From Bacteroidota bacterium (GTDB lineage: Bacteria; Bacteroidota; Ignavibacteria; UBA10030), in NCBI GenBank assembly GCA_025454835.1, contig JALONQ010000015.1, forward strand, positions 1-58,917: a DNA stretch of 58,917 nucleotides, given 5' to 3'. Every line of letters starts with the position of its first letter. Within the stretch, counting starts at the first letter, position 1. Positions 2,847 through 58,917 of this stretch are shown piece after piece. A program made the position numbers and the translations under genes. The notes under the pieces were generated by a model that saw only the letters and a program-made list of their open reading frames with translations, was not told where the DNA came from and ran no database searches.

Positions 2847-3710
2847 ATGCTCTTTCGCTTCTGCGTCCAATTCGCCGGCTGTCTCCTTCTCCCGCTTGCA
2901 CTGTCCGCTCAGATCCCCAACGGAGGATTCGAATCTTGGTCCGCTGGTGAGCCCGTCGGTTGGCTCACGAACAACGTCCTTCCGACGTATCCTTTGATCA
3001 CTCAGACATCCACGGCCCATTCCGGATCCTCAGCCGCACGAGGATCGGTCATGACCTTCTCCGCCGTCGGATACTCGGCCACCTTGTACAGTGGGCAGAA
3101 CGGGGACGGCATCTCCGTCACCTCGCGCGTCGGGACCCTGAAGGGCTTCTACACCTTCACCTCCTTGAGCGGTGACCAGTTGGTGGCCTCCGTCGCCATG
3201 GAGAAGAACGGCGAGGGGATAGGCGTGGGCACATCCGTCCTTCCGGCGGCCGCGGCGTTCACCGCGTTCACGGTCAACATCACCTACTTCACGAATGATG
3301 TCCCCGACACGGCTGTCATCTGGTTCGCCATGGCGGGGGCACCCGCGCCTCATGTCGGTTCGACCTTCTCGATCGATGATCTGACCTGGGAGGCGGCAAC
3401 CTCGGTCTCCGACCTCGGCCTGCATGTGCCGGTTGAGGTCGCACTAAGCCCCGCGTATCCAAATCCGTTCAATCCGTCCACGACGATCCGATACTCCTTG
3501 CCGGTCTCCGGCCGCGTTGCCCTCACCGTCTTTGACCTGCTCGGACGACAGGTATCGAGTCTCGTCGACGCTGAGCAGGCCGCCGGACACCATCAGGTCA
3601 ATTGGTCGGCCGACGGCATGCCATCCGGGACGTATCTCTGCCGCCTCGACGTGCTGACGGCGGATGGTCAACTGACGCAACGCGCCATTCGCCTCATTCT
3701 CGCCAAGTAG
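2847..3710 (+). CDS. exported protein with T9SS type A sorting domain
   Basis: The 287-residue protein begins after a strong Shine-Dalgarno (AAAGGAG). It has an N-terminal signal peptide ending about 'PLALSAQ', then a beta-rich domain of about 170 residues ('GGFESWSAGEPVGW...') resembling carbohydrate-binding or PCMD-like jelly rolls. The C-terminus is a type IX sorting domain: 'YPNPFNPSTTIRYSLP', 'LGRQVSSLVD', 'PSGTYLCRLD'. It should be exported by Sec, crossed over the outer membrane by T9SS and released or attached at the surface. Ligand unknown. A strong hairpin terminator follows. Confidence 0.85.
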   Translation: MLFRFCVQFAGCLLLPLALSAQIPNGGFESWSAGEPVGWLTNNVLPTYPLITQTSTAHSGSSAARGSVMTFSAVGYSATLYSGQNGDGISVTSRVGTLKGFYTFTSLSGDQLVASVAMEKNGEGIGVGTSVLPAAAAFTAFTVNITYFTNDVPDTAVIWFAMAGAPAPHVGSTFSIDDLTWEAATSVSDLGLHVPVEVALSPAYPNPFNPSTTIRYSLPVSGRVALTVFDLLGRQVSSLVDAEQAAGHHQVNWSADGMPSGTYLCRLDVLTADGQLTQRAIRLILAK

Positions 3711-10192: not shown

Positions 10193-13100
10193 TCAGTTCT
10201 TGTCGCCGGTCAATTGCCGCACGCGATCGATCTCGCGCTGCGCCGCCGTCTTGAACGACGGATCGATCCCCGGACGTTGAATGATCTGTCGATACATCGC
10301 CACTGCCTGATCGAACCGGGACATCTTCTCATACGACTGGCCCGCCATGTAGTACGACGCCGCCACCCAGTCGACCGGTCCGGACCTCGTGACGAGGTAC
10401 GGCACCTTGAGGAACTCGAGGATCGCCTGCTGGTGATCTCCCTTGTAGTGATACGCCTCGCCGATGTAGTAGCGAAGCTCCGCTTCGAGGTCCGCCCCCG
10501 CCGTCTGCAGCAGGTTCTGCAGATGGGTCACCGATTGGTCGTTGTAGCCGAGCTTCTGGTAGAGGACGCCGATATCGATGCGCTTGTTCATCAGCTCCGG
10601 GTCATCGGGATACTGGTCGATGTACCGCCGTGTCATCTGGAGCGCGGCGTCGAACAACGCTTGCTCTTTGTACGTCAGGATCAGATTGTTCATCGCGAAC
10701 TGCACCAGGTCGGCGGAGCTCTTGGGATCGTCCATCACCGCCTTGAACAGCGCCGAGGCGCGGTCCCATTGCTCCAGCGCATACAGCGCATTGCCGAGGC
10801 TCAGTCGCACCCGCGGCGCCAACGCATGCTGCGGATATCGCTGGAGGACGCTGTCGTACACCTCGGCGGCACGCGGAACTTCCTGGTCGAGCTCGTAGGT
10901 GCGCCCCAGCCAGAACCATGCTTCCGCCGCCGTCGGCGTGTTCGGATACTGCCGGACCACCAGCTCGAACCGCTCACGGGCGCCGGAGGTCTTCTCTTTC
11001 CGAAGCAAGTGCTTGCCGCGCTCGAACTCAAAGACCGCCACGTCGGACGCCGCCTTCGGATACTTCTTGACGAACAGGCCGATACGCCGGTCGGCTTCCT
11101 TCAGATTGTCCAGGCGCAGGTACGCGTTGATCGTCTGCGATTCCAGCCGCTGTCGGAGCGAGTCGGAGACGTTCTTCGACAGAAGGTCGCTGTAGCGCGT
11201 GATCGCTTCCGCATACTGCTCATTGCGGAAGAGCAGGTCGGCGCTTTCGAGGGCGACGGCGTTCACGTCGCCGCCGGCCGCCGCCGAGATGCGAGCCGCT
11301 TCCTGCATGTGGGCCGACGCCCGCGGAAGGTCGTTACGCGCCTCTGCCAAAGCGGCCAACGCCGTATACGAGGTCAACAGGATCGTCGGGTCGGTCTCGC
11401 GTGAGATCACCTCGCCATACCAGCGCGCCGCTTCATCGTTCCGGCCGATACGCTGGTTCGCCACCGCCATTCGGAAGGCCGACGAGGCCGGCATTTGGCG
11501 CACTTCCAACCGGTCTTCTTCGATGCGTCGACGGGCCGCCGCATACCGGTCGGCCGCCGTCGTCCATGCCTCAGCTCCGAACGCCCCATCGGCCAAGAGC
11601 AGGTCCAGCGTGACCGGATCGACGGCATACGGAGCCGTCCTTCGCGCGCGGTCGACCCATCGTTCGACCGCGGCCTGATCTCCCTTGTCGGCGGAAAGAC
11701 GCGCAGCACGCAACGCCGCCGCAAGGCCGCGCGGATGGGCCATGTCACGCTCAGCGATACCGGCCATCAGCGACTGGGCCGAATCGCGGTCTCCCCGCGC
11801 TTCCAGCTGAAGCGCGATCTGGTAGGTCGCCTCGACCGACCGACCGCGGTCTCCCCCGGCCGCTGCCGCGGCCGACCACCACGTCAGAGCCGCGTCCGGC
11901 GCTTTGAGCGCCGACGCGCGCTCCGCGAGGGTCAGATACATCTTGTCGCGTTGACGGTGCGTCACATAGAGAGAATCGACCTCGCCGGCGATCGCGCGCA
12001 GGTCGGCCACCGAGGCGGCGCGGACGGCCCGGAGTTCGACGAGCGACACAGCGCCGTCGGATGACAACGGATGGTCGGGGTGATCGTGCAGGAGCGAATC
12101 GAAGAGGGCGATCGCATCGTTTCGCCAGCGATCCCGTAGGGCGCGCGAGATGCCAGGCCGTTCGGCCTCTGATGAAGCCGCGACTCCAGCCTTATACCAA
12201 GCCGTCGGGCGAAGCGACGATTCCAATCCCCCCAGCAACGCCCTTCGATACTGTGCTTGCGCCAGATCGTAGTTCTTAAGCTGTGCAAAGGAGATCTCGG
12301 CCAGTCGAAAGGCCAGCGCCGAGCGTTGCTGTTCTCCGATCACATCGCCCAGCAGAAGCGCGAGTTGTTCCGTGCCGGCATCGCGGTCACGCATCTCGAA
12401 GAGCGTCATGATGCGCAGGTCCGCGGCCACGGCAGGCGCCAGCGGGCTTGCCGAAAATCGCGTCGCGAACTGTTCGAACCGGCGCTTGGCTTCGGGGAGG
12501 TCGCCCCGCGCGCGCGCGCAGCGAGCCGCGCCATACGCTGCCGCATCGGCGATCGACGCCGCGGCGGGATCGGCCGCCAGACGCTCAAAGATCGGCTCTG
12601 CACCCACAGGATCGCTCAGTCCAGTCTCCAGCGCATGCCCGGCCCAGAGCCACAACGTCGGCGTGGCGGGATCGGACGGTGAGGCCTGCCCGAAGAGCGT
12701 TACGCGACGGACGACCTCGTCCCATCGTGAGGTCCATCGGGCCGCCTTCACTCCCGCGATCATATAGGCCGTCCGGTCACCTTGCGTGGTCGTGTCGTCC
12801 GCCGCGCGTTCATACCAACGAGCCGCGGTGGACGTATCGCCGGCAAGCTCAGCCAGACGTCCCGCTTCGAGCGCGGCCGTGGTGCGGCGTGGACCGGCGA
12901 GCCGAGTCGCGGCTTCGAACGCGCGCCGCGCTCCCGCCGCATCACGACGGAGCGCGAGCGAACGGCCGATGCGAATGAAGGCGTGTTGCCGAACGTCCGA
13001 CGAAACTCGCCCGGTGTCCTCAGCGACCGACCTCCATGCTGCGGCCGCATCGGCATGATCGCCGGTCGCCTCCTTTAGCTCCGCCAGTTGGAACAGCGCC

Positions 13101-13843
13101 GCCGGAAGGACCGCCGACGCGCGGTAGTTCTTCAGAATGTCCTGGAGCGCGTCTTCCGCCGCACGTGGACGTCGCATGGCCACGGCAAGTCGTGCGTTCA
13201 CCAACTGGGCTTCGGCGCGCGCGTTCGCATCCTTGCTTCCTTCGAGCACCTTGCGGGATTCTTGCGCCGCAGCGTCGAACTGACCGGCCTCGATGAAGTA
13301 GGTCGCCAGCCGCAAGCGGGCTTCGACGACGTCGGCCGATCCGTACTCTTGCGTCAGGGTCTTCAGAACCCGCATGGCGCTCGTACGGTCGCCGAGCGAT
13401 TCAAACAGGTCAGCCGCTTTCTGCAGCGCGAAGGGGGCTTGTCTTGAGCGGGGATGAAAGGTCCGCACGCGTTCGTAGGCAAGGGCCGCCTCGGCCCTAT
13501 CTCCTGTGGCCTCGTAGGACTCGGCAACTCGAAGCCAGGCTTCCGGAGCTTTCGGATTCTCCGGGTACGAAAGGGCGAAATTCTGGAAGGTGAAGCGGGC
13601 CTCGTCTTGGCGGCCCAGATTGGATTGCGTCAAACCAAGGTAGTACCGGGCCTCGATCGCCTGCTGGGAGGAGCCATAGTAGGCGATGAACTGGCGAAAT
13701 TGCTCGAGGGCCAGGTCGTAGAACCGGTCATTGTACAGATTCAGCGCGAGCTTGAAATCCGCATTCTCTTTGGAATCTTGCGGAAGGGCCGGTTGGGCCA
13801 GAAAGAGGAGCAGGGCAAGGGAGAGACTAGAAAACCGTCGCAT
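10193..13843 (-). CDS. large exported TPR-repeat protein
   Basis: The ATG at 13843 is chosen because it opens a signal peptide (MRRFSSLSLALLLFLAQPALPQ). The 1216-residue mature protein is nearly all tetratricopeptide repeats (e.g. 'LALNLYNDRFYDLALEQF', 'AEAWFWLGRTYELDQEVP', 'EAYHYKGDHQQAILEF'). The first and last repeats resemble YbgF/BamD-type outer-membrane assembly TPRs. Periplasmic TPR scaffolds of this size occur beside T9SS or gliding genes in related phyla, but nothing here proves such a role. An in-frame upstream extension of 58 Arg-rich residues is judged non-coding. Confidence 0.85.
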   Translation of the reverse strand: MRRFSSLSLALLLFLAQPALPQDSKENADFKLALNLYNDRFYDLALEQFRQFIAYYGSSQQAIEARYYLGLTQSNLGRQDEARFTFQNFALSYPENPKAPEAWLRVAESYEATGDRAEAALAYERVRTFHPRSRQAPFALQKAADLFESLGDRTSAMRVLKTLTQEYGSADVVEARLRLATYFIEAGQFDAAAQESRKVLEGSKDANARAEAQLVNARLAVAMRRPRAAEDALQDILKNYRASAVLPAALFQLAELKEATGDHADAAAAWRSVAEDTGRVSSDVRQHAFIRIGRSLALRRDAAGARRAFEAATRLAGPRRTTAALEAGRLAELAGDTSTAARWYERAADDTTTQGDRTAYMIAGVKAARWTSRWDEVVRRVTLFGQASPSDPATPTLWLWAGHALETGLSDPVGAEPIFERLAADPAAASIADAAAYGAARCARARGDLPEAKRRFEQFATRFSASPLAPAVAADLRIMTLFEMRDRDAGTEQLALLLGDVIGEQQRSALAFRLAEISFAQLKNYDLAQAQYRRALLGGLESSLRPTAWYKAGVAASSEAERPGISRALRDRWRNDAIALFDSLLHDHPDHPLSSDGAVSLVELRAVRAASVADLRAIAGEVDSLYVTHRQRDKMYLTLAERASALKAPDAALTWWSAAAAAGGDRGRSVEATYQIALQLEARGDRDSAQSLMAGIAERDMAHPRGLAAALRAARLSADKGDQAAVERWVDRARRTAPYAVDPVTLDLLLADGAFGAEAWTTAADRYAAARRRIEEDRLEVRQMPASSAFRMAVANQRIGRNDEAARWYGEVISRETDPTILLTSYTALAALAEARNDLPRASAHMQEAARISAAAGGDVNAVALESADLLFRNEQYAEAITRYSDLLSKNVSDSLRQRLESQTINAYLRLDNLKEADRRIGLFVKKYPKAASDVAVFEFERGKHLLRKEKTSGARERFELVVRQYPNTPTAAEAWFWLGRTYELDQEVPRAAEVYDSVLQRYPQHALAPRVRLSLGNALYALEQWDRASALFKAVMDDPKSSADLVQFAMNNLILTYKEQALFDAALQMTRRYIDQYPDDPELMNKRIDIGVLYQKLGYNDQSVTHLQNLLQTAGADLEAELRYYIGEAYHYKGDHQQAILEFLKVPYLVTRSGPVDWVAASYYMAGQSYEKMSRFDQAVAMYRQIIQRPGIDPSFKTAAQREIDRVRQLTGDKN

Positions 13844-14401
13844 GAAGCTCAAAATACGACTACTCCGACGCGTTATCAATTGATTACTTGATGGCATGGC
13901 AGGTGATCTCCTAACAGGCGGAAAAGGGCGATTTCGAGGTCGTCGCCGCCGACTCCTTCCTTCTTTTCTACGCGACCCTGACCTGGATTCAGCAAGCCCG
14001 CCCATTGCTGACATCAAAGAAATGGCCCATTCGGGTTTCTGACGGACCGGGCAGATCGTCCAGCCTGCGGTCTGGGCAGAGTCCCGACCGTCTCAAGGGG
14101 GAAGCGCCCTGATACATGCAAGAACTGGCCGTTCTAGGAATACGGAAATCAGTCACAGAACTTCACAATTGTGGGAAACACGCCCCGGCGGGCCTCCAGA
14201 ATGGCCATTTTTTGAGCAAAGGTTGCAGGTTGGTGTTGAATTATTCTACAATTTGGAGGCATGGGGCTTGTATGTTCTACCACATCTCCACAGTCTGTTG
14301 CGGAGAACCATATTCTACGGGCGGAGCGACTCATGGGTAGCTTCGTGAGAAAGGCCCGGCCGAAGAATCCACCACCACACACAGATTCCTTTGGAGGAAT
14401 C
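13844..14401. other. divergent promoter region, no gene seen
   Basis: These 558 bases separate the TPR gene and the cytochrome gene. No coding region is supported. An AT-rich stretch at about 14225-14275 (GTTGAATTATTCTACAATTTG) is the best candidate promoter for the cytochrome. A TAGGAAT element at 14135-14141 recurs in other promoter regions of the window. Confidence 0.4.
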
Positions 14402-17257
14402 ATGAAGACTGCTTTCTACTGTCTCGTAGCACTGCTCGCGCTGTTGCTCGTCGCGGCAGAGCCGGTCGCCGCACAGGTACAGACGAAGATTGTTGTCGTC
14501 GCCGTGCCGGACCGGTTCAAGGCGGGTAACGGGAACGAGCCGACACACGGCATTCCGAACGTCGGAGTTGGTGCGCGCGTTGTGCTCAAGCCGTTCGTCG
14601 GTCGGGGCACATCGATCCACACGAACAGCCTCATCGGATTGAATGCAACGAGCGCGTCGTGGAGTTTCACGTCGAAGCCCGCGGGATCGATCCTGACGAA
14701 TACGGACATCAAGGACACGGCACTTGCCGGCAACATGGGCAAGATCGTGTACTTCAAGCCTGATGTCCCGGGTTCGTATGTTGTCAGCATGACGGTCCAG
14801 GCGGATAGCGCCGGCGTCGCACAGGGAAGCGCCACGGCGACATTGACGGTCACAGCCGCAATGTTCAAGGGCGTGGGCCCGTTCCGTCCGAGCAGCGGCA
14901 AGACGCTCAGCCCCTTCAATTGCGCCCCGTGTCACGACCAAAACAGCGGTCAGTTCGCAACGTTCAAGAACACGAATCACGCCGTCGCGTTGACAAATCG
15001 TGTCAACGAAGAAGGCGGACATTTCAGCTCCAACTGCATGCGTTGCCACACGGCCAGCACGGCCGGCTTTGGCAGCAACGGCGGCTATGATGACTACGCC
15101 ACCAAGCTGGGCTTCACGATCCCCGCGCACAATGGGACGGGCGTGTGGGATTCGCTCCTTACAGTCGCCGATACGAAGGCGACGGCGGGAAGCGACTCCA
15201 TGCGCGTCATGTTGGGCCTCGCCGGGATCCAGTGCGAAAGCTGCCATGGTCCGGCGGGTGAGCATGTCATGACGGGCGACCCGAGCCTGATGGCGAAGGA
15301 ACACACGTCGGATGTGTGCGCTCCGTGCCACTATTCTAGCGACCGCCATCCGAAGGGCTATGCGTGGGAAGGCACTGCACATGCGGTCTCGGCCACTGAG
15401 GGTCCGTTGAATCCGCAGTACACCAACCGCAACACCTGCTCGACCTGCCACATCGGCCAGGGCTTCGTGAACGAGCGGATCAAGGGCAACCCGGCTCCGA
15501 CGACCGGCTACCAGAACCCGGAGAGCATCGGCTGCGTGACCTGCCACGATCCGCACAGCAACGTGGGCATGGAGCACCAGTTGTATCGCAAGACCGTGGC
15601 CGACGCCTGCACGGCGTGCCACCAGTCGCGCATCAGCAGCCGCGGCCTGCACCATTCGCATCAGGGCCCGATGATCCAGGGCATCAATGCGACGCCGATG
15701 ACGGCGGCCCTGAACAAGGCCACCACGCCCGACCTGTTCAACAACTTCTCTGGGTGGCAGCTTCCGGGCTACCGGTATGACAACGGCACGCACAGCGAGA
15801 TCGAAGACCGTTGCGTGACCTGCCATATGGCCCAGTCCCCCGACTTCGACCCATCGTTCATGTCGCCCGACACTCTGTTGAACGTCGTCGGCGGCCACAC
15901 GTGGAAGGTGTCGTGGACGGATGTGAACGGCACGCACGTCAACAACAAGGGCTGCGCCGGTCCGGATTGTCACGGCGGCACCATCGCCGATGTGACGGGC
16001 TTCACCGAGGGTTCGCGCGCAGCGGTCCAGGTCCTGCTTGACACGCTCCGGGCCAACCTGCCGAAGCGCTCGCCGACGGCCAACCCGAACCCGAACGACC
16101 CGAAGTTCCCGACCGAAGCCGGTCTGACGACGATCCAGGCGGCAGCGTCGTACAACTTCTATTTCGTATGGTATGACGGTTCGAACGGCGTCCACAACCC
16201 GATCTACGCTCGCCAACTGCTGGAGTCGTCGATCGAACAGCTGAAGCTTGGCGCCGGCGCGGCGGCGATCGCGTCTATCAAGGATTCGCCGAACGACCAG
16301 GGCGGAAAGGTCCAGATCGTGTGGAACCAGTTCCCGGCCGAGAAGTACTCCTTCAACAAGGTCGTCAACTACGGCGTGTGGCGTCAGGTAGAGTCCACCA
16401 CCGGCATGAAGGTGACCGCGGCGCCGAAGAAGAACTACACCGAGATGATCCAGACCGGCACGGTCGGTGAGAAGTACTCGGTCAACGGCCTCGTGTGGAA
16501 GTTCGAAGGGACCATCCCGGCGACCAACCTGACGCAGTACATGTTCGAAGCCACGACGAGCAAGAACCTCGCCGGCACCGACACCGTGTCGGCCCGCACG
16601 TCGTTCTACGTCGCCGGCTACTCGGCCGACAACATGGTCGTCTATTCGTCGCCGATCTTCACAGGCTTCTCGGTGGACAACATCCCGCCGCTGAAGGTCG
16701 TGAACTTCTCGGTGACCAAGACCCCGACGGGCGCCACGCTGAACTGGAAGCCGCAGGACCAGGAAGCGGACGTTGTGCAGTACAATATCTATCGCGGCAC
16801 GACGGCTGACTTCGTTCCCGGTACGCCGATCGCGACGGTCGACGTGATGACCTATGCCGACGCCTTTGCTTCGGGCGACTACTTCTACAAGCTCGAAGGC
16901 GTCGATAAGGCCGGCAACAAGGGCGTCATCTCGGCCCCCGTTGGCACCACCAACGTCGCGGAAGTGGGCGGCGTTCCGACCGAGTATGCGCTCGGCCAGA
17001 ACTACCCGAACCCCTTCAACCCGACGACGGTGATCCCGTTCTCGCTGCCCAACACGGGCCATGCGGTCCTGAAGGTCTACACGATCTCGGGTGAAGAGAT
17101 CGCGACCCTCGTCGACCGCGAGATGAGCGCGGGCAACTATCACTTCACGTGGGACGGCCGCAACAAGGTCGGCCAGACGGTCGCCACAGGCATGTATCTG
17201 TATCGCCTGCAGTCCGGCACGTTCTCGTCCGTGAAGAAGATGGTGCTGGTGAAGTAA
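14402..17257 (+). CDS. secreted nine-haem cytochrome c with FN3 and T9SS sorting domains
   Basis: A GGAGG Shine-Dalgarno precedes the ATG at 14402, which opens a signal peptide (MKTAFYCLVALLALLLVAAEP). The 951-residue product has eight CxxCH haem motifs (CAPCH, CMRCH, CESCH, CAPCH, CSTCH, CVTCH, CTACH, CVTCH) and one C-x4-CH (CAGPDCH). An N-terminal Ig-like domain (about residues 25-170) precedes them; an FN3-like domain ('PPLKVVNFSVTKTPTGATLNW') and a type IX sorting domain ('YALGQNYPNPFNPTTVI') follow. It should mature in the periplasm and be displayed at or beyond the outer surface, fitting extracellular electron transfer or surface redox chemistry. A terminator follows. Confidence 0.9.
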   Translation: MKTAFYCLVALLALLLVAAEPVAAQVQTKIVVVAVPDRFKAGNGNEPTHGIPNVGVGARVVLKPFVGRGTSIHTNSLIGLNATSASWSFTSKPAGSILTNTDIKDTALAGNMGKIVYFKPDVPGSYVVSMTVQADSAGVAQGSATATLTVTAAMFKGVGPFRPSSGKTLSPFNCAPCHDQNSGQFATFKNTNHAVALTNRVNEEGGHFSSNCMRCHTASTAGFGSNGGYDDYATKLGFTIPAHNGTGVWDSLLTVADTKATAGSDSMRVMLGLAGIQCESCHGPAGEHVMTGDPSLMAKEHTSDVCAPCHYSSDRHPKGYAWEGTAHAVSATEGPLNPQYTNRNTCSTCHIGQGFVNERIKGNPAPTTGYQNPESIGCVTCHDPHSNVGMEHQLYRKTVADACTACHQSRISSRGLHHSHQGPMIQGINATPMTAALNKATTPDLFNNFSGWQLPGYRYDNGTHSEIEDRCVTCHMAQSPDFDPSFMSPDTLLNVVGGHTWKVSWTDVNGTHVNNKGCAGPDCHGGTIADVTGFTEGSRAAVQVLLDTLRANLPKRSPTANPNPNDPKFPTEAGLTTIQAAASYNFYFVWYDGSNGVHNPIYARQLLESSIEQLKLGAGAAAIASIKDSPNDQGGKVQIVWNQFPAEKYSFNKVVNYGVWRQVESTTGMKVTAAPKKNYTEMIQTGTVGEKYSVNGLVWKFEGTIPATNLTQYMFEATTSKNLAGTDTVSARTSFYVAGYSADNMVVYSSPIFTGFSVDNIPPLKVVNFSVTKTPTGATLNWKPQDQEADVVQYNIYRGTTADFVPGTPIATVDVMTYADAFASGDYFYKLEGVDKAGNKGVISAPVGTTNVAEVGGVPTEYALGQNYPNPFNPTTVIPFSLPNTGHAVLKVYTISGEEIATLVDREMSAGNYHFTWDGRNKVGQTVATGMYLYRLQSGTFSSVKKMVLVK

Positions 17258-17282: not shown

Positions 17283-17313
17283 AGAGCCCCGGGAGAAACA
17301 CCCGGGGCTCTTT
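17283..17313 (+). terminator. terminator of the cytochrome gene
   Basis: AGAGCCCCGGG pairs perfectly with CCCGGGGCTCT around an AGAAACA loop and is followed by TTTC. It begins 26 bases after the stop codon. Confidence 0.9.
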
Positions 17314-17665: not shown

Positions 17666-18439
17666 CTACGCTCCGCCGGCGGACTCCTTCTGCTCTTCTT
17701 TCACCAGATTCGCGCGCAGATACTCCCGGTTCAGCCGGGCGATATGCGTCACCGAGACCTCCTTCGGGCACTCGGCTTCGCACGCGTAGTTGTTCGAGCA
17801 GTTGCCGAACCCCTCGTCGTCCATCTGCTTCACCATTTTCAGGACCCGCTCGGTCCGCTCGACCTGACCCTGCGGCAACAGCGCCAACTGCGACACCTTC
17901 GCCGCGACGAACAGCATCGCTGACCCATTCGGGCAGGCAGCCACGCACGCCCCGCATCCGATACATGCCGCAGCGTCCATCGCCTCGTCCGCCACATGCT
18001 TCGGGATCGGAATGGCGTTGCCGTCGGGTACGCCGCCGGTCTTCACCGACACGTATCCCCCGGCCTGCATGATCCGGTCCATCGCCGTCCGGTCGACCAT
18101 CAGGTCCTTGATCACCGGGAACGCCTTCGCCCGCCAGGGTTCCAGCGTGATCGTATCGCCGTCGCGGAATGTCCGCATGTGCAACTGGCATGTTGCGATG
18201 GCCCGATTTGGACCGTGGGCCCGCCCGCCGATCACGATGCCGCACGAACCGCAGACCCCTTCGCGGCAGTCATGGTCGAACGCGATCGGCTCCTTTCCCG
18301 CTTTCACGAGGTCGGTATTGACCACGTCGAGCATCTCGAGGAACGACATATGCTCGCTCACATTGCTCGCGACGTAGGTCTCGAACCGGCCCGAGCTTTG
18401 GGCGTTCTGTTGGCGCCAGACGTTGAGAGTGATCTTCAT
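17666..18439 (-). CDS. sdhB: succinate dehydrogenase/fumarate reductase iron-sulfur subunit
   Basis: This 257-residue subunit carries electrons from flavin to quinone. The 2Fe-2S ligands lie in '[10 protein letters not shown]' and a following Cys ('ATCQLH'). The 4Fe-4S and 3Fe-4S ligands are in '[12 protein letters not shown]' and in '[12 protein letters not shown]', all intact. It is the last gene of sdhC-sdhA-sdhB. The gene order and single cytochrome b subunit match the B-type enzyme of Bacteroidota, Epsilonproteobacteria and Bacillus, which may work as succinate:quinone oxidoreductase or fumarate reductase. Direction is not decided by sequence. Confidence 0.96.
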
Positions 18440-18520
18440 AAGAGAACCAGAAAATGGGTGATCGAACGTGAGCTCCCCGCACGCGTGGGGGGCAGGAAAA
18501 GCCGGGTCAGGGACCCGGAC

Positions 18521-20434
18521 TTACTTGTAGCTCCTCTGGCTCGGCTTCACATACTCGAAGTCCAGCTTCTCCTTGTGCATCTTTGGCGAACTCACTTTGC
18601 CGGTGTACTCCCAGGCCGCGACGTAGGCGAACTTCGCGTCGTTCCGCTTGGCCTCGCCTTCGTCCGTCTGATGCTCCTCGCGGAAATGCCCGCCGCACGA
18701 TTCCTCCCGCTGCAATGCGTCGAGCGCCATCAGTTCTCCCAATTCGAAGAAATCGGCCACCCGGCCCGCCTTCTCCAGTTCGCTGTTGACGTCGGCCGCC
18801 ACGCCCGTGATCTTCACGTCCTTCCAGAACTTCTCGCGAAGCGCGGAGATCTCTTTGGCCGCCTTCTTGAGGCCTGCGGCGTTCCGCGCCATGCCGACGT
18901 GGTCCCACATGATCTTGCCCAGCTGGCGATGGAACTCGTCCACCGTCGTCTTGCCGTTGACCGACATGAGCTTTTCGACCTGCTTCTGGATCTCGGTCTC
19001 GGTACGCTTGAAGTCGGCATGGTCCGTGCCCACGGCGGGGAACTTCGTCGACGCGAGGTAGTCGCCGATCGTGTACGGCAGAATGAAGTATCCGTCGGCC
19101 AACCCCTGCATCAGGGCCGAAGCTCCCAGCCGATTGGCGCCGTGGTCCGAGAAGTTGGCTTCGCCGATCACGTACAGGCCGGGGATCGTGCTCATCAGGT
19201 TGTAATCCACCCACAACCCGCCCATGGTGTAGTGGACGGCGGGGTAGATGCGCATCGGCGTCGTGTAGGGATCCTCAGCCGTGATCTGCTTGTACATGTC
19301 GAACAGGTTGCCGTACTTGCCCGCAACATTGTCCTTCCCCAATCGCTTGATGGCATCGGCAAAGTCCAGGTACACGGCCAGCCCCGTTTCTCCCACGCCG
19401 TGCCCCTTGTCGCACATCTCCTTCGCTCGCCGCGAGGCCACGTCGCGCGGCACCAGGTTGCCGAACGATGGATACATCCGCTCGAGATAGTAGTCGCGCT
19501 CCGCTTCCGGTATATCCCCCGGCCGCCGCTTGTCTCCCTTGGCCTTCGGCACCCACACGCGGCCATCGTTCCGGAGGCTCTCGCTCATGAGCGTCAGCTT
19601 CGACTGATATTCACCGCTTTGCGGGATGCAGGTCGGGTGGATCTGCGTGAAGCATGGATTGCCGAAGAGGGCCCCGCGTTTGTGAGCGCGCCAGATGGCG
19701 GTCGTGTTGCTCGCCTTCGCGTTCGTGGAAAGGAAGAAGACATTGCCGTATCCGCCGGTTGCGAGGACCACCGCGTTGGCCGTGTACTTCTCGATGGCAC
19801 CTGTCACCAGATTCCGGGCGATGATGCCGCGGGCCTGACCGTCGACGACGACGAGGTCGAGCATTTCGCGACGTTCGAACAACGTTACGCCCTTGTTGGC
19901 GATCTGCCGCGAGAGGACGCTGTACGCACCGAGCAGCAGTTGCTGCCCTGTCTGTCCGCGGGCGTAGAAGGTACGCGAGACCTGCGCCCCGCCGAACGAA
20001 CGGTTGTCGAGCAGACCCGAATAGTCGCGCGCGAACGGGACACCCTGCCCCACGCACTGGTCGATGATCGAATTGGAGACCTCGGCGAGCCGGTAGACGT
20101 TGGCCTCACGCGCCCGGTAGTCCCCGCCTTTCAGCGTATCATAGAAGAGACGGTAGACGCTGTCGCCGTCGTTGGAGTAGTTCTTTGGCGCGTTGATGCC
20201 CCCCTGGGCCGCGATGCTGTGAGCGCGTCGGGGGGACTCGTGGTACGTAAAGGCCAGCACCTTGTAGCCAAGCTCGGCCAGCGAAGCGGCCGCCGAAGCG
20301 CCGGCGAGACCCGTGCCGACGACGATCACGGAGTATTTTCGCTTGTTGGCTGGATTGACCAGCTTCACGCCGAACCGGTGGTTCGTCCACTTCTGCTGAA
20401 TGGGGCCGGCGGGGGCTTTCGCGTCGAGTTTCAT
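18521..20434 (-). CDS. sdhA: succinate dehydrogenase/fumarate reductase flavoprotein subunit
   Basis: The 637-residue flavoprotein begins its Rossmann fold with '[20 protein letters not shown]'. '[16 protein letters not shown]' surrounds the FAD site, and the substrate-binding segments '[11 protein letters not shown]' and '[16 protein letters not shown]' are intact. His-44 or so in '[12 protein letters not shown]' is the expected 8-alpha-histidyl FAD attachment site. It starts 2 bases after the sdhC stop codon, so translation is probably coupled. Substrate: succinate or fumarate on the cytoplasmic side of the membrane. Confidence 0.96.
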
Positions 20435-20436
20435 GA

Positions 20437-21126
20437 TCAGATCCCTCCCAGCGCCATCGTGGCGTCGCTGACGTTATGGAAGAAGTAGAAATAGACCGGC
20501 AGAATGGCGAAGCCGATCGGAACAATGAGCCAGAAGAGGACGCCGATCGCGTCGAGCAGTCCGCCATAGCGTTTGTTCCGCAGGCCAAGGGTCTGAAATG
20601 CGGCTTGGAATCCGTGGCGGAGATGGTAGCCGAGCAGGACGAGCGCGACCACATAGAAGGCGCTGTACCAGCCGCTCGAGAAGGCGCTTGCGACGAGCGC
20701 ATAGGCCGACGGCGGGTTCTCCGTGAACCGCAGACCGCCGACGAAGGTCTGCAGGTGCACGACGAGAAAGATGAGGACGATGCTTCCCGTAACGATCGTA
20801 TTGCGCGACGCCCAGGGCGTGGTGTCCTTTAAACGATACGTCTCGTACTTGGTCGGCCGCGCCTGACGGTTCTGCCACCAGACCAGGAGGCCGGCGCAGA
20901 TGTGGACCAGGAATCCCAACACCAGCCCGACTTCGAGCACGCGGATGGCGCCGTTCGTGCTCATGAAATGGGAATAGGCGTCGAACGCCGCTCCCCCGTC
21001 GTTCTTGAGCAACGTCAGATTGCCGACGAGATGGACGAGGAGGAACGAACAGAGGAACAACCCCGTCAGGCTCATGAAGATCTTCTTCCCGACGGAGGAT
21101 TGGACGAACGCGGTGAGTTGATTCAT
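20437..21126 (-). CDS. sdhC: succinate dehydrogenase cytochrome b subunit (B-type)
   Basis: The 229-residue protein has five hydrophobic helices and histidines suited to bind two haems b: 'LLVHLVGNL', '[11 protein letters not shown]', '[10 protein letters not shown]' and 'GYHLRHGFQ'. It anchors SdhAB and passes electrons to menaquinone, as known for the Bacillus/Wolinella-type family. First gene of the operon. The 170 bases upstream, before ftsX ends, should hold its promoter. Confidence 0.92.
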
Positions 21127-28965: not shown

Positions 28966-30798
28966 TTACTCGTGAGATCGAGTCGCCGATGTCGATGAAC
29001 CGTCCGCCGCCGCCGATCGTTCTTGCTCGGCCTTCGGTTGGACCGGAAGAGTGAACGTGAACGTCGCCCCGCCATCAACCACGCCGTCAGCCCAAATGCG
29101 GCCTCCGTGGCGGTGAATGATCCTGCGAACGTTCGCCAGTCCGATCCCTGCTCCGGAATACTCGGCGCGTGAATGCAGTCGCTCGAACAGGCCGAACAAC
29201 CGGTCTTGGTATTGCGGGTCGAATCCGATCCCGTTGTCGCGCACGAACAACCGATACTCGGTCATGGGTGGCTCGCACGGAATGCTCCCCACCTCAATGA
29301 CGGCGTGTGGCCGACCGTGCGTGAACTTCACGGCGTTGTTGAGGAGGTTGGCAATCGCCTGTCGCAGCAACCGACGGTCGCCCTCGACGACGGGCAGGGG
29401 ACCCACCTTCCATTCGATCGTCCGGCCGGACATCTCTGGCTTGAGTTGCTCGCGCACGTCACTCACCAGCTGGCCGATTTCCACGCGGGATCGTTGCAGT
29501 TCCGTTTGTCCGATGCTGAGATACTCGATCAACCCGTCGACGAGCATGCCCATCCACTTCGCCGAAAAGGCGATCGTTTGGAGGTACTTGTGCGCAAAAG
29601 CGTCGTCGCGCACAGCCGGACGGTTCTGACTCATCTCGGCGTAGGCGCTGATGTGGCGCAGCGGGGCCCGCAGGTCGTGCGACACGGTGTAGCTGATCCG
29701 CTGCAATTCCAGCATCGTCGACTCGAGCTCCGACGTTCGCTCGTGCACGCGCAGCTCCAGTTGCTGATTAAGCCGGCGCACTTCGTCTTCCGCGGCCCTC
29801 CGGTCAGTGATGTCGCGGGCCACGACGTGGAATCCGGTCAGCGAGCCTTCCCGCAGTTCCAGCGTGACGTTCATGCTGAGCCAATGGATGCGCCCCTTCC
29901 GTGATCGAAGCGCCACTTCATACGAGCGACTCGGCTCGCGAAGATGGAACTGTCGGAGGAACGCCCGACGGACGCTCGAACGGTGTTCGGGGAGGCAGAA
30001 CTCGAAAAATTCGCGGCCGATGAGGTCCTCGATCGCGTACCCGGCCAACTTGGCGGCCGCGCTGTTCACGTAGGCGAAACGTCCGTTGATGTCGGTCGAG
30101 ACGATCGGCTCCTGCGCCGATTCAACGACGAGGCGATAGCGAGCCTCGCTCTCCGACAGCTTCTGGGATTGGCGCTGCAACTCCCCATGGGACCTTCCCA
30201 GGGCTGCCTCGCTCTTTTTGGCCCGGTCGAGCGACGACTGCATATTCCGGATGAGCAACCCCACCGCAAAGGCGGTGATCGCCAGGATGAGACTGCCCTC
30301 GATGACATCATAGAGGGTCGTAAACTGGCTCAAGTTCGATGTCAGCCAACCGAGCACCTCCGCCCCGGTCAGCGCCGCATAGACCAGGATCGTCACGACC
30401 GTGAAGGTCAAGAAGACCTTTCGGTCCAACAGGATGCTCGCGGCGACCACGAGAGCCGGCATGGCCATGATCACGACATCGTGCACCCCATCGTCGCTGA
30501 CGGCGGCCATAAAGGTCACCATCGCCATCAGGCTGAACAAGATCACCATCAGCGCCGGCCGCACCTTGCCGCTTCGGTTGAGGAGAAAGGCAACGACCAG
30601 AGCGAGCTGCTCGACGGAGATCGCGACGAGGATCGGCCGCAGGAGGCCTTCGTGCCAGCGAAGCACCGTCGGCAGGAAGAGGGCGAAGAACGTGACAAGC
30701 GTGAGCATGTGGACGATCTTCACGAGTCGATCATCGTCGGGATCGACCATCGTCGGAGGGCTCAGCCATCGCCGGAGCCGGTGGAGGAGGTCGTTCAT
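28966..30798 (-). CDS. membrane PAS histidine kinase
   Basis: The ATG at 30798 overlaps the upstream kinase stop (ATGA). The 610-residue protein has about six N-terminal membrane helices (residues 25-200), a coiled segment, one PAS domain (about 235-350), HisKA with 'SHDLRAPLRHI' (phospho-acceptor His near 395) and a HATPase with N box 'NLLNNAVKF' and G boxes 'DNGIGF' and 'GAGIGLANV'. It is the bacteriophytochrome-like HisKA subclass. No receiver protein is adjacent, so the partner is unknown. Confidence 0.9.
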   Translation of the reverse strand: MNDLLHRLRRWLSPPTMVDPDDDRLVKIVHMLTLVTFFALFLPTVLRWHEGLLRPILVAISVEQLALVVAFLLNRSGKVRPALMVILFSLMAMVTFMAAVSDDGVHDVVIMAMPALVVAASILLDRKVFLTFTVVTILVYAALTGAEVLGWLTSNLSQFTTLYDVIEGSLILAITAFAVGLLIRNMQSSLDRAKKSEAALGRSHGELQRQSQKLSESEARYRLVVESAQEPIVSTDINGRFAYVNSAAAKLAGYAIEDLIGREFFEFCLPEHRSSVRRAFLRQFHLREPSRSYEVALRSRKGRIHWLSMNVTLELREGSLTGFHVVARDITDRRAAEDEVRRLNQQLELRVHERTSELESTMLELQRISYTVSHDLRAPLRHISAYAEMSQNRPAVRDDAFAHKYLQTIAFSAKWMGMLVDGLIEYLSIGQTELQRSRVEIGQLVSDVREQLKPEMSGRTIEWKVGPLPVVEGDRRLLRQAIANLLNNAVKFTHGRPHAVIEVGSIPCEPPMTEYRLFVRDNGIGFDPQYQDRLFGLFERLHSRAEYSGAGIGLANVRRIIHRHGGRIWADGVVDGGATFTFTLPVQPKAEQERSAAADGSSTSATRSHE

Positions 30799-33700
30799 GC
30801 CGCCTCCGCCGAGGGCAGCGTAAAGAAGAACGTCGCGCCGGCATCGATCTCTCCTTCGGCCCACGTCGCTCCGCCGTGACGCTGGATGATGCGGCGTACG
30901 TTGGCCAGTCCGATGCCGGTCCCTTCGAACTCCTCGCTCGTATGCAACCGCTGGAACACCCCGAAGAGTTTGCCGGCATAGGACTGGTCGAACCCTGCTC
31001 CGTTATCGCGCACGAAGAACGTCATCAGCCCGGTCGGGTGCTGCGCGGGCCGACTTCCGACCTCGATCCGCGCGGGCGAACGGTCCCGCGAGAACTTGAC
31101 AGCGTTCGACAAGAGGTTCGAGAGAACGAGCTTGAGCAGTGTGGGGTCTCCCTGCACCGGCGGCAGATCGCCGATGCTCCAATCGATCACGCGTCCCTCT
31201 GTTTCGGCTTCCAGGTCACGTCGGACCTCGCTCGCCAGGCGGGCAAGGTCGACGCGTCCGGTCCGCAGGTCGGTCCGACCGATGCGGGAGAACGCGAGCA
31301 GTTCGTCGATGAGATTGCCCAGCTTTACGGCCGACTGCGAGACCGTCGTGAGATAGCGAAGGCTCTCTTCGTCGACGAGGTCCTGGATGCGTTCTCGCAG
31401 CAGCTCGACGAAACCCGAGATATGCCGCAGCGGCGCCCGCAGGTCGTGCGACACGGAGTAGGAGAACGATTCCAGCTCTTGGTTCACTGCTTCGAGCTGG
31501 GCGGTCCGGTCGTGGACCCGTTGTTCGAGCCCGGCATTGAGCCGTTCGGTCTCGGCCTCGGCTTGTTTGGCGGCGTCGTACAACCTTGCGTTCTCGAGCG
31601 CCACGGCCAGCTGATCGGCCACGAGCGACACGAACTCGACGTCGGCTTCCGTGAATCGACGATACTGCTCGCTGTCGTCGACGCGCAGGACGCCGATGAC
31701 GCCAGCGCTGGTCCGGATCGGCACCGCCAGCACCGACCTCAGGCCGAAGCGTTCCACCCATTCCTGCGGGATGAGGTCGGTCGTCCGGCAGTCGTTGACC
31801 AGGATGGGCCGATTGGTTTCAACGCAGCGGCCGGAAATGCTGAAGCCGATCGGCTGCGAAGGCGCAGGACCATCGAACGCTTCACTGGCCGGAGCAACGA
31901 GCGACCGTCCCGATGGATCGACGAACCGAATGACGGCGCGCGTGACGCCCAGATACTGCGGAATGAACGTGGTGACCTTCCGTATGATCTCGGGCTGCTC
32001 GAGCGAACTGGCGAACAGGAAACCAAGCTCACGCAACAATTGCAGACGCCGCAGTTTGTCGTTCAATGCTTCTTCGAACAGCTTGGCTTCCGTGATATCC
32101 TGGATCGAACCGACCACACGCGTTACGACGCCATCGCGCTGCCGTTCGACCTCCCCCAGGATCTCCACGAATTTGACCGTCCCGCCGGGCAGGACAATGC
32201 GATGCTGGCGCCGGAGCGACAGGCCTTGTTGCGCCGTGGCCATGAGGTCTTTTGCAACCTGATCGCGATCCTCGGGGTGCACTATACTCAGAAACGTCAT
32301 CGGCTCGGGAACGAACGTCGCCGGGTCGAGGCCCAGAACCCGGTACGTCTCGGCGGACCAGGTTGTGGCTTGGCTTTCGACGTCGACCTCCCAGCTTCCG
32401 ATCTTGCCGATCCTCTGGGCCACGCGAAGGCTTTCTTCGCTGTGGCGAAGCGCCTCCTCCGCCCGTTTGCGTTCTGTGATGTCACGCTGGATCGCAAGGT
32501 ATCCCAGGATGTTTCCATGGCTGTCGCGCACGGCATTTGCCGTCGCCTCGACGAGCACCAATGACCCGTCCTTTCGGCGATTGGTCAGCTCGCCTTGAAC
32601 GCCGAACTCGTGTCGGAGCACCTTCCAGAATTCTTCGTACGCCGTCTGCGGCATCATGCCGCTCTTCAGGATCCTGGGTGTCATCGTGCCGATCACTTCG
32701 TGCGGGGAATACCCGTAGAGCGACGTGAAGGCACGGTTGACATACCGGAACACGCCGTCGGAGTCGGTCATGAACACGACCTCCTTGGAGATCTCCACGG
32801 CCTGCCGGAGCCGCACGAGCTCGTCCTCAGCCTGCTTGCGCTCGGTAATGTCGCGCAAGTTGATGACGATGGCGTTCACCGTCCCGTCGTTCAGCGAATT
32901 CTTCACGATACTCTCGATCCAGACCCATGAACCGTCCGCATGGCGCATGCGATAGTTCTTGCGAGTCGACGCTCCGGCGTGATCGCGAATGCCATCGAAC
33001 GCGATCCGCACCATCGGGAGGTCATCTTCGTGAACGTCACGGAAGATCGATGTCCCTTCCCATTGTGCCGGAGAGTGGCCCAAGATCGCTTCGATCGATG
33101 GGCTGCCATAGGCGATGTCACCGTTGGCGTTGACGAGCACGATGGCGTCAATGTTGTTCTCCACGACGGCCCGGAAGCGCTGCTTGGCCGACTCCGATTC
33201 CAGTTCGGCCCGCTTCTTCGCGGTGATGTCCTGCATCGTGCCCATGACGCCCGTCGGATGTCCTCCCTCCCACGACACCGACCAATAGACCGAGAGCCAC
33301 GCACGACTGCCATCCGCCCGGCGGATGCGGAACTCCTCGTCCCGCGGTGGAACGACGCTGGTACTGTTTCGCACGGTCTGCAAGGTCAGCTCGAAGCGCT
33401 GGCGATCCTCCGGGTCGATGACCTCATCGATGAACGTCGGTATCGGTATCGGAGTCACCGGCTTCATCGTTTTGACCGGTCCGATCAGATTGAAGGCCTC
33501 CTCGGTGAGCGCGATCGTCATCCGGCGCAGGTCGACGTCGAACGAGCCCATACGCGCGATCCGGAGCGCCTCCGCGAGTTGCGCCCGGCTCATCCGCAGC
33601 GCTTCCGAGGCCTCGATCCGCTCTGCGATCTCATCCTCCAGTTCCCGGTACGCTGTCCTCAGATCACCCGTCATCGTGTTGAACGATTCTCCGAGCAGCC

Positions 33701-57088: not shown

Positions 57089-57121
57089 TCATCGGACGCT
57101 TCTTCTGGAAGGATGCTCATC

Positions 57122-58318
57122 ATGAAAAACCTTGTGTACCTCTTTGGAATACTGCTCGCCGTGGTATTCCTGACTGCCGGCGCGAATGCGCAGGTGGTGA
57201 TCAATGAGATCCAATCACGCGGCGTTGCCGGGAATCTCGACTGGATCGAGATCTACAACCCCGGAGACGTTGCCGTGAACCTTGGCGGCTACACGATCTA
57301 TGACAACGGCGCCGGGGGTGCGACCCCAACGAAGCCCAAGAAAGCCTTCCCGGCTTCAGCCACGATCCCGGCGAAAGGCTTCTACGTCATCATTACGGAT
57401 ACCGCGGATTTCACGGGTGACCTCAGCGGTTTCGGCCTCTCGAGCAGCGGAGAAAAAGTGTGGCTGCATGACACCGTGCGCGGTGTGGTGGTCGACACCG
57501 TCACGTTCGGCTTGACGGGATCGGCAGCCCAGACCTATGGCCGAGGACCTGATGGGGGCGGCTGGACCGTCTTGAACGCTGTCACGCGCGGTACTTCCAA
57601 CGGCAAGATCTTCATGAACGAGGTCTATTCCCGCGGTGTAGCCGGCAATCTCGATTGGATCGAGATCTACAGCAGTGTACCGGCCCTCGTGCGACTCGGC
57701 GGCTACACGATCTATGACAACGGCGCCGGGGGTGCGACCCCAACGAAGCCCAAGAAGGCCTTCCCCGCGTCAGCCACGATCCCGGCGAACGGCTTCTACG
57801 TCATCATTACGGATACCGCGGATTTCACGGGTGACCCCAGCGGTTTCGGCCTGTCGAGCAGCGGAGAAAAGGTGTGGCTCCATGACACACTCCGTGGGAT
57901 GATCGTCGATACCGTCACGTTCGGAGCAACCGCGACTGCCGCACAATCGTACGGTCGCTCTCCGGACGGCGGGGCATGGCAAGTGCTCAACACGATCACG
58001 CGCGGTGCGACCAACGGCGGCTCAACCTCGATCGGTTCCGACGGCTCCGTCGCCACCGATTTCGCGCTGGCGCAGAACTATCCGAACCCCTTCAACCCTT
58101 CGACGACCATTCGATTCTCCGTGGCGCGTGAGTCGAACGTGCGGCTGACGGTGTTTAACCTGCTCGGGCAACCGGTGGCGACGCTGGCCGAACAGCTCGT
58201 GAACGCAGGAACACACTCCTTTGTGTTCGAAGCGACCAACCTGCCGAGCGGTGTCTACGTCTATCGCTTGGACGCGGGTGCTGCCACGCTGACGCGCACG
58301 ATGATGCTGCTGAAGTGA
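57122..58318 (+). CDS. T9SS-exported protein with duplicated lamin-tail domains
   Basis: The 398-residue protein has a signal peptide ('LLAVVFLTAGANAQ'), two lamin-tail domains and a type IX sorting domain ('FALAQNYPNPFNPSTTI', 'LPSGVYVYRL'). The LTD units are related by 138 residues (414 bases) with almost identical DNA, e.g. from 57284 and 57698, so the duplication is recent or kept by gene conversion. Last gene of the operon; secreted to the cell surface. A terminator follows. Confidence 0.9.
   Translation: MKNLVYLFGILLAVVFLTAGANAQVVINEIQSRGVAGNLDWIEIYNPGDVAVNLGGYTIYDNGAGGATPTKPKKAFPASATIPAKGFYVIITDTADFTGDLSGFGLSSSGEKVWLHDTVRGVVVDTVTFGLTGSAAQTYGRGPDGGGWTVLNAVTRGTSNGKIFMNEVYSRGVAGNLDWIEIYSSVPALVRLGGYTIYDNGAGGATPTKPKKAFPASATIPANGFYVIITDTADFTGDPSGFGLSSSGEKVWLHDTLRGMIVDTVTFGATATAAQSYGRSPDGGAWQVLNTITRGATNGGSTSIGSDGSVATDFALAQNYPNPFNPSTTIRFSVARESNVRLTVFNLLGQPVATLAEQLVNAGTHSFVFEATNLPSGVYVYRLDAGAATLTRTMMLLK
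57284..57757. repeat. near-identical direct repeats inside the lamin-tail gene
   Basis: Long identical tracts begin at 57284 and 57698, offset 414 bases. Several later blocks repeat with few changes, including synonymous sites, showing a recent duplication. Confidence 0.85.
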
Positions 58319-58718: not shown

Positions 58719-58917
58719 TAAGATGTTTACCGCAAAGTCGCTAAGGCGCAAGAACACATTTCATCTGGACTAGCGTCTTTGCGTCTTAGCGGTGCGCAAC
58801 TTCTACACTAAGATGTTTACCGCAAAGTCGCCAAGGCGCAAGAACACATTTCATTTCGACCAGCGTCTTTGCGTCTTAGCGGTGCGCAACTTCTACACTA
58901 AGATGTTTACCGCAAAG
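58719..58917. repeat. 90-bp tandem repeat, running off the window
   Basis: Units start at 58720, 58810 and 58900 (AAGATGTTTACCGCAAAG...), exactly 90 bases apart. The first two complete copies differ by only a few bases, and a third begins before the edge. Each contains an imperfect inverted repeat (ACCGCAAAGTCGC..., then GCGTCTTTGCGTCTTAGCGGT). There are no repeat/spacer units, so it is not CRISPR. Confidence 0.85.

Follow-up and report, generated by a model that had tools for sequence, protein, structure and literature searches.

How might electrons reach a multihaem cytochrome that carries an export signal for the type IX secretion system (T9SS)? The question is raised by a gene at positions 14402-17257 on the forward strand of the window, by which we mean the whole stretch of DNA analysed here (58,917 nucleotides, contig JALONQ010000015.1 of assembly GCA_025454835.1, from a Bacteroidota bacterium of the class Ignavibacteria). 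It encodes a protein of 951 residues, here called the window protein, with nine haem-binding motifs and a C-terminal T9SS sorting domain. A preliminary description of the locus proposed that export through the T9SS would put haem wiring outside the cell, as an electron route different from porin-cytochrome conduits. We find that the haem core is homologous across its nine haems to that of OcwA, and that the genome contains both T9SS genes and a conduit-like cluster of multihaem cytochromes. Our reading, to which we give a probability of about two in three, is that the protein is a terminal oxidoreductase of the OcwA type at the cell surface, delivered by the T9SS and fed by a porin-cytochrome conduit.

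The gene and its domains

The source genome (G000) is an assembly of 3.2 Mb in 47 contigs, listed as 100% complete and 0.37% contaminated, in which the window is contig C9. The open reading frame begins with the ATG at 14402. There is a second in-frame ATG upstream at 14261, with its GGAGG just one base away; the start at 14402 is preferred because it leads directly into a signal-peptide-like stretch. An AlphaFold model was made of the mature protein (54 alignment rows, pLDDT 81.5, pTM 0.66). The features of the gene and its product are as follows.

14393..14397, +, GGAGG ribosome-binding-like site (sequence)
14402..17257, +, nine-haem T9SS cytochrome, entire coding sequence including the stop codon, 951 residues (open reading frame, sequence, motif count)
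14402..14473, +, predicted N-terminal signal peptide, residues 1-24, n-h-c pattern (read from the sequence by eye)
14474..14860, +, predicted N-terminal β-sandwich domain, residues 25-153 (secondary structure of the model)
14906..16246, +, OcwA-type nine-haem core and C-terminal helix bundle, approximately residues 169-615 (profile match to 6i5b, model match)
14921..14935, +, haem 1 motif CAPCH (motif scan)
15035..15049, +, haem 2 motif CMRCH, predicted open haem (motif scan, OcwA homology)
15233..15247, +, haem 3 motif CESCH (motif scan)
15317..15331, +, haem 4 motif CAPCH (motif scan)
15437..15451, +, haem 5 motif CSTCH, predicted open haem with pocket histidine H417 (motif scan, OcwA homology, alignment)
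15533..15547, +, haem 6 motif CVTCH (motif scan)
15608..15622, +, haem 7 motif CTACH (motif scan)
15812..15826, +, haem 8 motif CVTCH (motif scan)
15953..15973, +, haem 9 motif CAGPDCH, of the form C-x4-CH (motif scan)
16175..16198, +, DGSNGVHN motif in the C-terminal helix bundle, also present in OcwA (PDB sequence and profile alignment)
16262..16681, +, β-sandwich domain, residues 621-760 (model)
16682..16960, +, FN3-type domain, residues 761-853 (model)
17003..17245, +, T9SS type A C-terminal sorting domain, residues 868-948 (TIGR04183, likeness of the model to PorU 6za2)

The CxxCH motifs are at residues 174, 212, 278, 306, 346, 378, 403 and 471, and the C-x4-CH motif at residue 518, which confirms the eight-plus-one count of the preliminary description. 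A chance run can be ruled out, since in 2000 shuffled versions of the protein CxxCH occurred 0.011 times on average and at most once. The longer motif at haem 9 is confined to the window protein among 25 aligned rows, the 24 others having CxxCH at this position. The FN3 domain noted in the same description is marginal as a Pfam fn3 match (E 0.035), and is borne out by the fold of residues 761-853 in the model, which superimposes on 5g56 with Z 12.5 (rmsd 1.8 over 86 residues) and on the named FN3 domains 7jgu (Z 11.2) and 1k85 (Z 10.6).

The haem core is homologous to OcwA

A search of the PDB with the window protein as single sequence matched 6qvm, 6i5b and chain A of 6r2q, which is listed under another molecule name and which we take to be MtrA. 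A profile built from 25 relatives placed OcwA (6i5b) first with E 5.4e-31 and 6qvm second with E 5.1e-23, followed by octahaem and pentahaem nitrite reductases; 8rv0, 2vr0 and 4q4u are among the matches to the core. The profile alignment to OcwA runs in order through haems 1, 2, 3-4 and 5-9 and the DGSNGVHN helix, the stretches at haems 1 and 2 being weak when taken individually. The helix motif, as DGSxGVHN, is kept in the alignment of relatives and OcwA. The model superimposes on OcwA 6i5b with Z 12.2 and rmsd 4.0 over 343 residues (VIA-align), and on the S-layer cytochrome 6qvm with Z 11.8 over 347 residues. Its helices 504-528, 553-568 and 576-593 form a C-terminal three-helix bundle, as in the OcwA family.

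Two observations weigh against the structural part of this comparison. The alignment tool warns that helical models can reach Z of about 13 without kinship, and OcwA is absent from the first 50 rows of the Foldseek search, where PorU and FN3 chains dominate; the match surfaced in the VIA-align second look that followed. Despite the warning on Z, the predicted fold agrees with the sequence evidence, and the haem core is homologous to OcwA across nine haems. Structure prediction, which the preliminary description had suggested as a check, gives matches both to OcwA and to FN3-type folds.

Other family assignments were considered and rejected. The window protein is not an ammonia-forming nitrite reductase of the NrfA family, in that haem 5 has CxxCH rather than CxxCK and there are nine haems where five are expected. 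Nor is it a decahaem cytochrome of the MtrC/OmcA family: it has nine haems, and TIGR03507 (OmcA/MtrC) is not among its 14 matches up to E 1. A point on the other side is that TIGR03507 does match a stretch of 14 of 80 relatives at E 0.001 (8 of 29 and 6 of 51 in the two lineage groups described below). PF22113 scores 29.3 on the window protein against a cut-off of 30. The strongest NCBIfam E-values belong to UshA_like_PCGU and the DmsE-type TIGR03508, yet both are far under their cut-offs. They reflect common c-haem stretches; the first matches 29/29 and 51/51 of the relatives in the two groups, and the second 29/29 and 50/51.

Haem ligands and the possible substrate

The ligands were analysed in an alignment of 54 rows, comprising the window protein and 53 of its 80 named relatives. 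Each of the nine proximal histidines is kept in 54/54 rows, as are six histidines outside the motifs (H193, H327, H385, H464, H499 and H598); H417 is kept in 53/54 and H288 in 52/54. Two others are less conserved, H316 in 36/54 and H207 in 25/54. In the available text on OcwA (PMC6703420), haems 1, 3, 4, 6, 7 and 8 are bis-histidine, the ligands of haem 9 are His and Met, and haems 2 and 5 are open, with a His-His motif above each. The count of eight conserved non-motif histidines is what seven distal ligands and the pocket histidine of OcwA haem 5 would require. H417 aligns on an OcwA His-His pair, which is assigned to haem 5 by its position, and the stretch around H316 aligns near the other pair. 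H464 has no counterpart in OcwA, but does have one in the nitrite reductases aligned; its presence in 54/54 rows suggests that haem 9 is His/His in this family.

Probably, therefore, haems 1, 3, 4 and 6-9 are bis-histidine and haems 2 and 5 open. It counts against this assignment that it comes from homology, the model being one without haems.

The kinship of the core raises the alternative that the window protein, once exported by the T9SS, acts at the surface as an enzyme on a soluble substrate such as nitrite, hydroxylamine, chromate or selenite, serving detoxification or respiration, rather than as a reductase of solids. The core belongs to the c554/NrfA/octahaem superfamily, nitrite reductases are among its PDB matches, and PMC6703420 (available text) describes OcwA as reducing nitrite and reacting with hydroxylamine. 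Against this, haem 5 is a CxxCH haem with an invariant proximal histidine, whereas most NrfA have CxxCK, and the linkage to a conduit described below suits the outward delivery of electrons, though a soluble acceptor would need the same. We consider a soluble-substrate enzyme unlikely, if the most serious of the alternatives.

The sorting domain and the T9SS

Residues 868-948 match the type A sorting domain TIGR04183 with 31.0 bits, above the curated cut-off of 23, as the preliminary description had proposed. From its FN3 domain onwards, the model superimposes on PorU of P. gingivalis (6za2) with Z 11.3 and rmsd 8.0 over 172 residues, and this chain is the first row of the Foldseek search. Absence of T9SS genes from the genome would have told against export, but all three of those searched for in G000 are present (GldK-N lay outside the search). 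SprA is found with 1051 bits (1109 including neighbours in frame), PorU with 882 bits at C13:37828-41127, and the best PorV-family match directly after it at C13:41501-42520. The genome has 75 sorting-domain matches.

Could the protein instead be retained in the periplasm, with a C-terminal domain that is merely a β-sandwich and has no role in sorting? The Pfam model Por_Secre_tail is under its cut-off (20.8 against 27), and an FlgD Ig-like model is over its own cut-off on the same stretch. However, TIGR04183 is over its cut-off, the T9SS genes are present, and the tail is found in 25/29 relatives from one set of lineages and 0/51 from others. Retention in the periplasm is accordingly very unlikely.

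Because the tail is over its cut-off, the T9SS genes are present, and the tail tracks lineage among 80 relatives, it is very likely that the window protein is T9SS cargo with an OcwA-type core. Of the earlier proposal of a surface haem protein exported by the T9SS, the export part is thus well supported, and placement at the cell surface very probably follows from it. A consideration on the other side is that we know of no T9SS cargo with such a density of haems.

It is worth adding that the window encodes two more proteins with T9SS sorting domains, at 2847-3707 (+) and 57113-58315 (+), the second of which also has a lamin-tail domain.

Distribution of the family and of its tail

A fusion unique to the window can be ruled out, since relatives with the same tail are common. 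A contig scan with the single protein as query found no relative, but an alignment query did. At the level of the order, 58 of 98 genomes have a match at E 1e-10. The distribution is patchy: the only other genome of the same genus examined (G317) has no match at this threshold, a point against our reading.

In a phylum sample of 296 genomes, 44 have matches at E 1e-3, and in 36 of these the match lies in an open frame of at least 500 residues, a cut that was set after the neighbourhoods were read. The remaining 8 have short frames alone, of 195-448 residues. The short matches in G004, G078, G093 and G290 are conduit-linked c554-like proteins of approximately 380-430 residues, and that in G180 is a small cytochrome of 193 residues adjoining a barrel gene; those of G103, G196 and G206 were left out of this reading. 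Because the short frames read are other cytochromes, the 36 rather than the 44 are counted below as nonahaem genomes. The tail motif is present in 47 of 51 open frames (50 loci read), and the other 4 are truncated where the stretch ends.

In the named genome collection, the best 80 of at least 203 relatives were kept. They span Bacteroidota/Ignavibacteriota, Calditrichota, KSB1, Neomarinimicrobiota, Latescibacterota, Verrucomicrobiota, Acidobacteriota, Gemmatimonadota, Planctomycetota, Chloroflexota and others. TIGR04183 is found in 25 of the 29 relatives from the first five of these lineages and in 0 of the 51 others (searched in two halves, with full lists of 22 and 16 families), where the two groups were drawn up from record titles with the tails already known, with Gemmatimonadota and six records titled "bacterium" placed among the 51. 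By motif, the tail is present in 26/29 and 0/51. Three of the 29 lack the motif: L139 is cut by the contig end, and L135 and L163 have lipobox-like starts. L095 has the motif, but its domain is cut within. A crude lipobox pattern is found in 12/51 of the others and 5/29 of the first group. Of those 5, 3 also have the tail and are probably false. The contrast in lipoproteins between the groups is weak.

In ten relatives another common C-terminal domain replaces the tail, six of them being of Verrucomicrobia type by name. This domain (YQIQ...SYVTPTR...FFRV-like; L089, L091, L092, L093, L097, L105, L106, L148, L149 and L155, mostly Verrucomicrobiota) may serve to sort or anchor these proteins in a way specific to the lineage.

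A tree of 113 cores, 67 of them tailed, was made by a quick method with a midpoint root. The tail changes 6 times on it, at least 3 of these by starred branches, compared to 36 in shuffles. The core has therefore gained or lost the sorting module more than once. The window protein lies within a clade of 9 rows, all tailed, with support 100.

One relative (L122) is from a named and presumably cultured strain, Stygiobacter electus 09-Me, which makes the idea of a T9SS-delivered cytochrome testable.

Two further observations concern gene copies. T9SS-tailed relatives occur as tandem pairs in 5 of 19 neighbourhoods (L067, L070, L071, L074 and L083). The open frames of L117 (Sumerlaeota) and L156 (Phycisphaerae) have 16 and 24 CxxCH, and are possible fusions or expansions of the core.

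A conduit-like cluster in the same genome

The preliminary description had also suggested a search for partner cytochromes. A scan of G000 for the CxxCH pattern gave 254 sites, against 167 in a reversed-pattern control, and among the sites listed there is a dense block at C3:91.5-100.7 kb. Here, on one strand, are a 13-haem protein, taken to be CbcL-like, whose membrane domain is of the cytochrome b561 type; a NapC/NrfH-like 6-haem protein; a 14-haem protein; CcmF; a barrel-like protein of 429 residues, whose mature part has no cysteine; and a lipoprotein-like cytochrome in which 18 CxxCH are accompanied by 3 longer motifs. Similar arrangements, often with additional 11-haem and 3-4-haem proteins, occur in 12 further neighbourhoods read, which were chosen by their barrel match. 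Judged from its genes, the cluster is probably a conduit from quinol to the outside, the 429-residue protein being the putative barrel.

The barrel is the least secure component, and several results count against it. The call rests on the composition and the ending of the protein. Its profile had 0 matches in the PDB up to E 1, 0 of 14 members matched Pfam, and there was no NCBIfam match either. An AlphaFold model of the homologue from L098, built on two rows, is unusable (pLDDT 30.5), and the beta-moment excess is modest, with z between 0.8 and 6.1 over 14 sequences and 1.9 in G000. The gene (G000:C3:95310-96596; L066:7308-8597) adjoins a 12- to 14-haem cytochrome in 15 neighbourhoods read, and this family, here called barrel429, is possibly an unnamed porin of electron conduits.

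The conduit-linked c554-like cytochromes mentioned above are distant relatives of the nonahaem core, of approximately 400 residues with 5 CxxCH and one variant motif (L166:10758-11990, L169:9058-10266, L171:4107-5294, and similar loci).

Co-occurrence and linkage with the nonahaem

Is the cluster connected with the window protein? In the phylum sample the NapC-like protein is found in 43/296 genomes (E 1e-30) and the barrel in 42/296 (E 1e-5). The barrel is present in 35/36 nonahaem genomes and in 7/260 of those without a nonahaem; for the NapC-like protein the figures are 34/36 and 9/260. With the uncut set of 44, they become 40/44 against 2/252 for the barrel and 39/44 against 4/252 for the NapC-like protein. 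Among 42 members of the class, the barrel is found in 20/20 genomes with and 4/22 without a nonahaem, and the NapC-like protein in 20/20 and 6/22. One of the barrel matches, in G135, is weak (E 4.9e-6, with one internal stop).

In some relatives, G228 and G251 among them, the genes share a locus. G228, from the same family as the source genome, has two T9SS-tailed cytochromes within a same-strand locus of about 26 kb that also contains a CbcL 61% identical to that of G000, 19-haem, NapC-like, 11-haem and 4-haem proteins, the barrel, a 14-haem protein, a cytochrome like the 18-haem lipoprotein, and CcmF. In G251, whose nonahaem belongs to the clade of the window protein, this gene is preceded, within about 33 kb of the same strand, by CbcL (59%), 19-haem, NapC-like (51%) and 11-haem proteins and CcmF; a 242-residue gene on the opposite strand lies directly before the nonahaem. 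This locus has a different, 558-residue barrel-like gene with 8-, 4- and 10-haem neighbours.

At least one non-overlapping homologue of the C3 cluster lies in the stored flank (1.1 Mb in all) of 17 of the 80 named loci (7/29 and 10/51), including a NapC-like match of at least 264 bits in 7 and a barrel in 3. Outside the named collection, 19 neighbourhoods include other proteins of at least 10 haems in 5 cases and none in 14.

Some of the evidence speaks against a connection. Conduit genes also occur in genomes without a nonahaem, and the co-occurrence figures are inflated by shared ancestry. In the source genome itself the cytochrome gene is on C9 and the conduit cluster on C3. The neighbours of the former are a TPR protein (10193-14017, -) and sdhB, sdhA and sdhC (17669-21126, -), with no conduit gene among them.

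This bears on the preliminary claim of an extracellular route for electrons other than a porin-cytochrome conduit. The absence of linkage in the source genome speaks for such a route, as does G251, which has no match to barrel429. Nevertheless, conduit components are present in G000 and in nearly all the sampled nonahaem genomes, the loci of G228 and G251 combine the two, and G251 has its other barrel-like gene and multihaem genes beside the nonahaem. Furthermore, cargo released at the surface would be unable to span the membrane by itself: the T9SS moves the protein, and would supply no electron path across the outer membrane. We regard a conduit-free route as highly improbable, and this part of the earlier proposal is not upheld.

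Proposed mechanism

We hypothesise that the window protein acts as the surface terminus of such a conduit. T9SS cargo passes the outer membrane folded and is processed by PorU. The cytochrome would be loaded with haem in the periplasm, cross the outer membrane in folded form through the type IX system (SprA, PorV), and be processed by PorU, the product being retained at the surface. Electrons from quinol would pass via the CbcL-like and NapC-like cytochromes of the inner membrane to the outer-membrane barrel with its 14-haem cytochrome and the surface multihaem lipoprotein, and from there to the nonahaem. Within it, the seven bis-histidine haems would relay electrons, and the open haems 2 and 5 would exchange them with an extracellular acceptor, which may be a metal oxide, an electrode or humics, or else a small molecule (nitrite, for example).

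The flow could also be reversed, with the surface cytochrome taking up electrons from Fe(II), an electrode or a partner cell and feeding them inward. Sequence does not fix direction, and conduits of this kind run either way. The NapC-like and cytochrome b/multihaem proteins of the cluster do resemble outward systems that oxidise quinol, which is not decisive but makes uptake rather unlikely.

A wider proposal, on which we are evenly divided, is that the T9SS is a standard surface route for terminal cytochromes in Bacteroidota and allied phyla, with folded holoproteins that have passed SprA docking on the conduit of barrel429 and 14-haem cytochrome, and each lineage refitting the core with its own sorting module. 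If the proposal for the window protein is correct, the T9SS is a delivery route for haem wiring, and SprA has to let through a large holoprotein to which nine haems are covalently bound. Uncultured groups with a T9SS nonahaem and a conduit could then be flagged from sequence as likely extracellular respirers.

Comparison with known systems

The closest described protein is OcwA of Thermincola potens (6i5b; PMC6703420), a terminal reductase of the cell surface that reduces metals. It likewise has nine haems in a c554 plus NrfA order and a helix bundle with DGSNGVHN; its histidines at the haem-5 pocket and six distal positions align with those of the window protein. It differs in being the surface protein of a Gram-positive organism, whereas the window protein belongs to a cell with two membranes and has Ig-like, FN3 and T9SS domains. 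Haem 9 is a second difference, His/Met in OcwA as against the suggested His/His ligation here, with a C-x4-CH motif in the window protein.

OmhA of Carboxydothermus ferrireducens (6qvm) has a homologous core and a surface electron-transfer role, but it is an undecahaem cytochrome, with eleven haems, from a monoderm host (PMC7829351, available text). The same source places OcwA in a subclade of Gram-negative nonahaems (cluster IV.A), which presumably are the family described here.

To our knowledge OmhA has no T9SS tail. The surface decahaems MtrC and OmcA would be alike in function, as surface multihaem terminal reductases at the end of a porin-cytochrome conduit; they are surface lipoproteins exported by type II secretion, not by the T9SS. 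With type A cargo (TIGR04183) the window protein shares a signal-peptide-like start, the sorting domain, and T9SS genes in the genome. Known T9SS cargo consists mostly of hydrolases, adhesins and gliding proteins, and we know of no nine-haem cytochrome among the type A cargo.

Geobacter-like and OmbB-like porin-cytochrome complexes have been reported in Ignavibacteria (PMC7399161, available text), and the C3 cluster is similar to these in having a barrel-like protein, multihaem partners and a lipoprotein-like cytochrome. Between the C3 barrel and OmbB or MtrB the likeness is in the kind of part, and neither Pfam, NCBIfam nor the PDB has a family that matches the C3 barrel. Secreted multihaem cytochromes have been predicted in Bacteroidota (PMC11495043), in a paper whose main text contains neither "T9SS" nor "type IX". 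Literature searches, using a limited number of wordings and with preprints and most subscription papers outside their coverage, found nothing that joins the T9SS to multihaem cytochromes. The match for multihaem and sorting domain, as far as its available text goes, was a review on methanotrophic archaea, and nothing was found on Stygiobacter cytochromes. The present analysis thus links the T9SS and multihaem electron transfer, two fields not joined in the literature searched.

Other features of the window

A promoter scan found no sigma-70-like site, which carries little weight for a host of this phylum. Three further features were noted.

17283..17311, no strand assigned (reported for the - strand), GC-rich hairpin directly 3' of the cytochrome gene, possible terminator (consensus match, of which fewer were found than in shuffles)
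28969-30864 and 30798-34994, -, adjacent histidine kinases, one of 1399 residues with HAMP, several PAS, and GAF domains
58719-58917, tandem repeat of 90 bp, 2.2 copies at 96%, reaching the contig end, which may explain the break in the assembly

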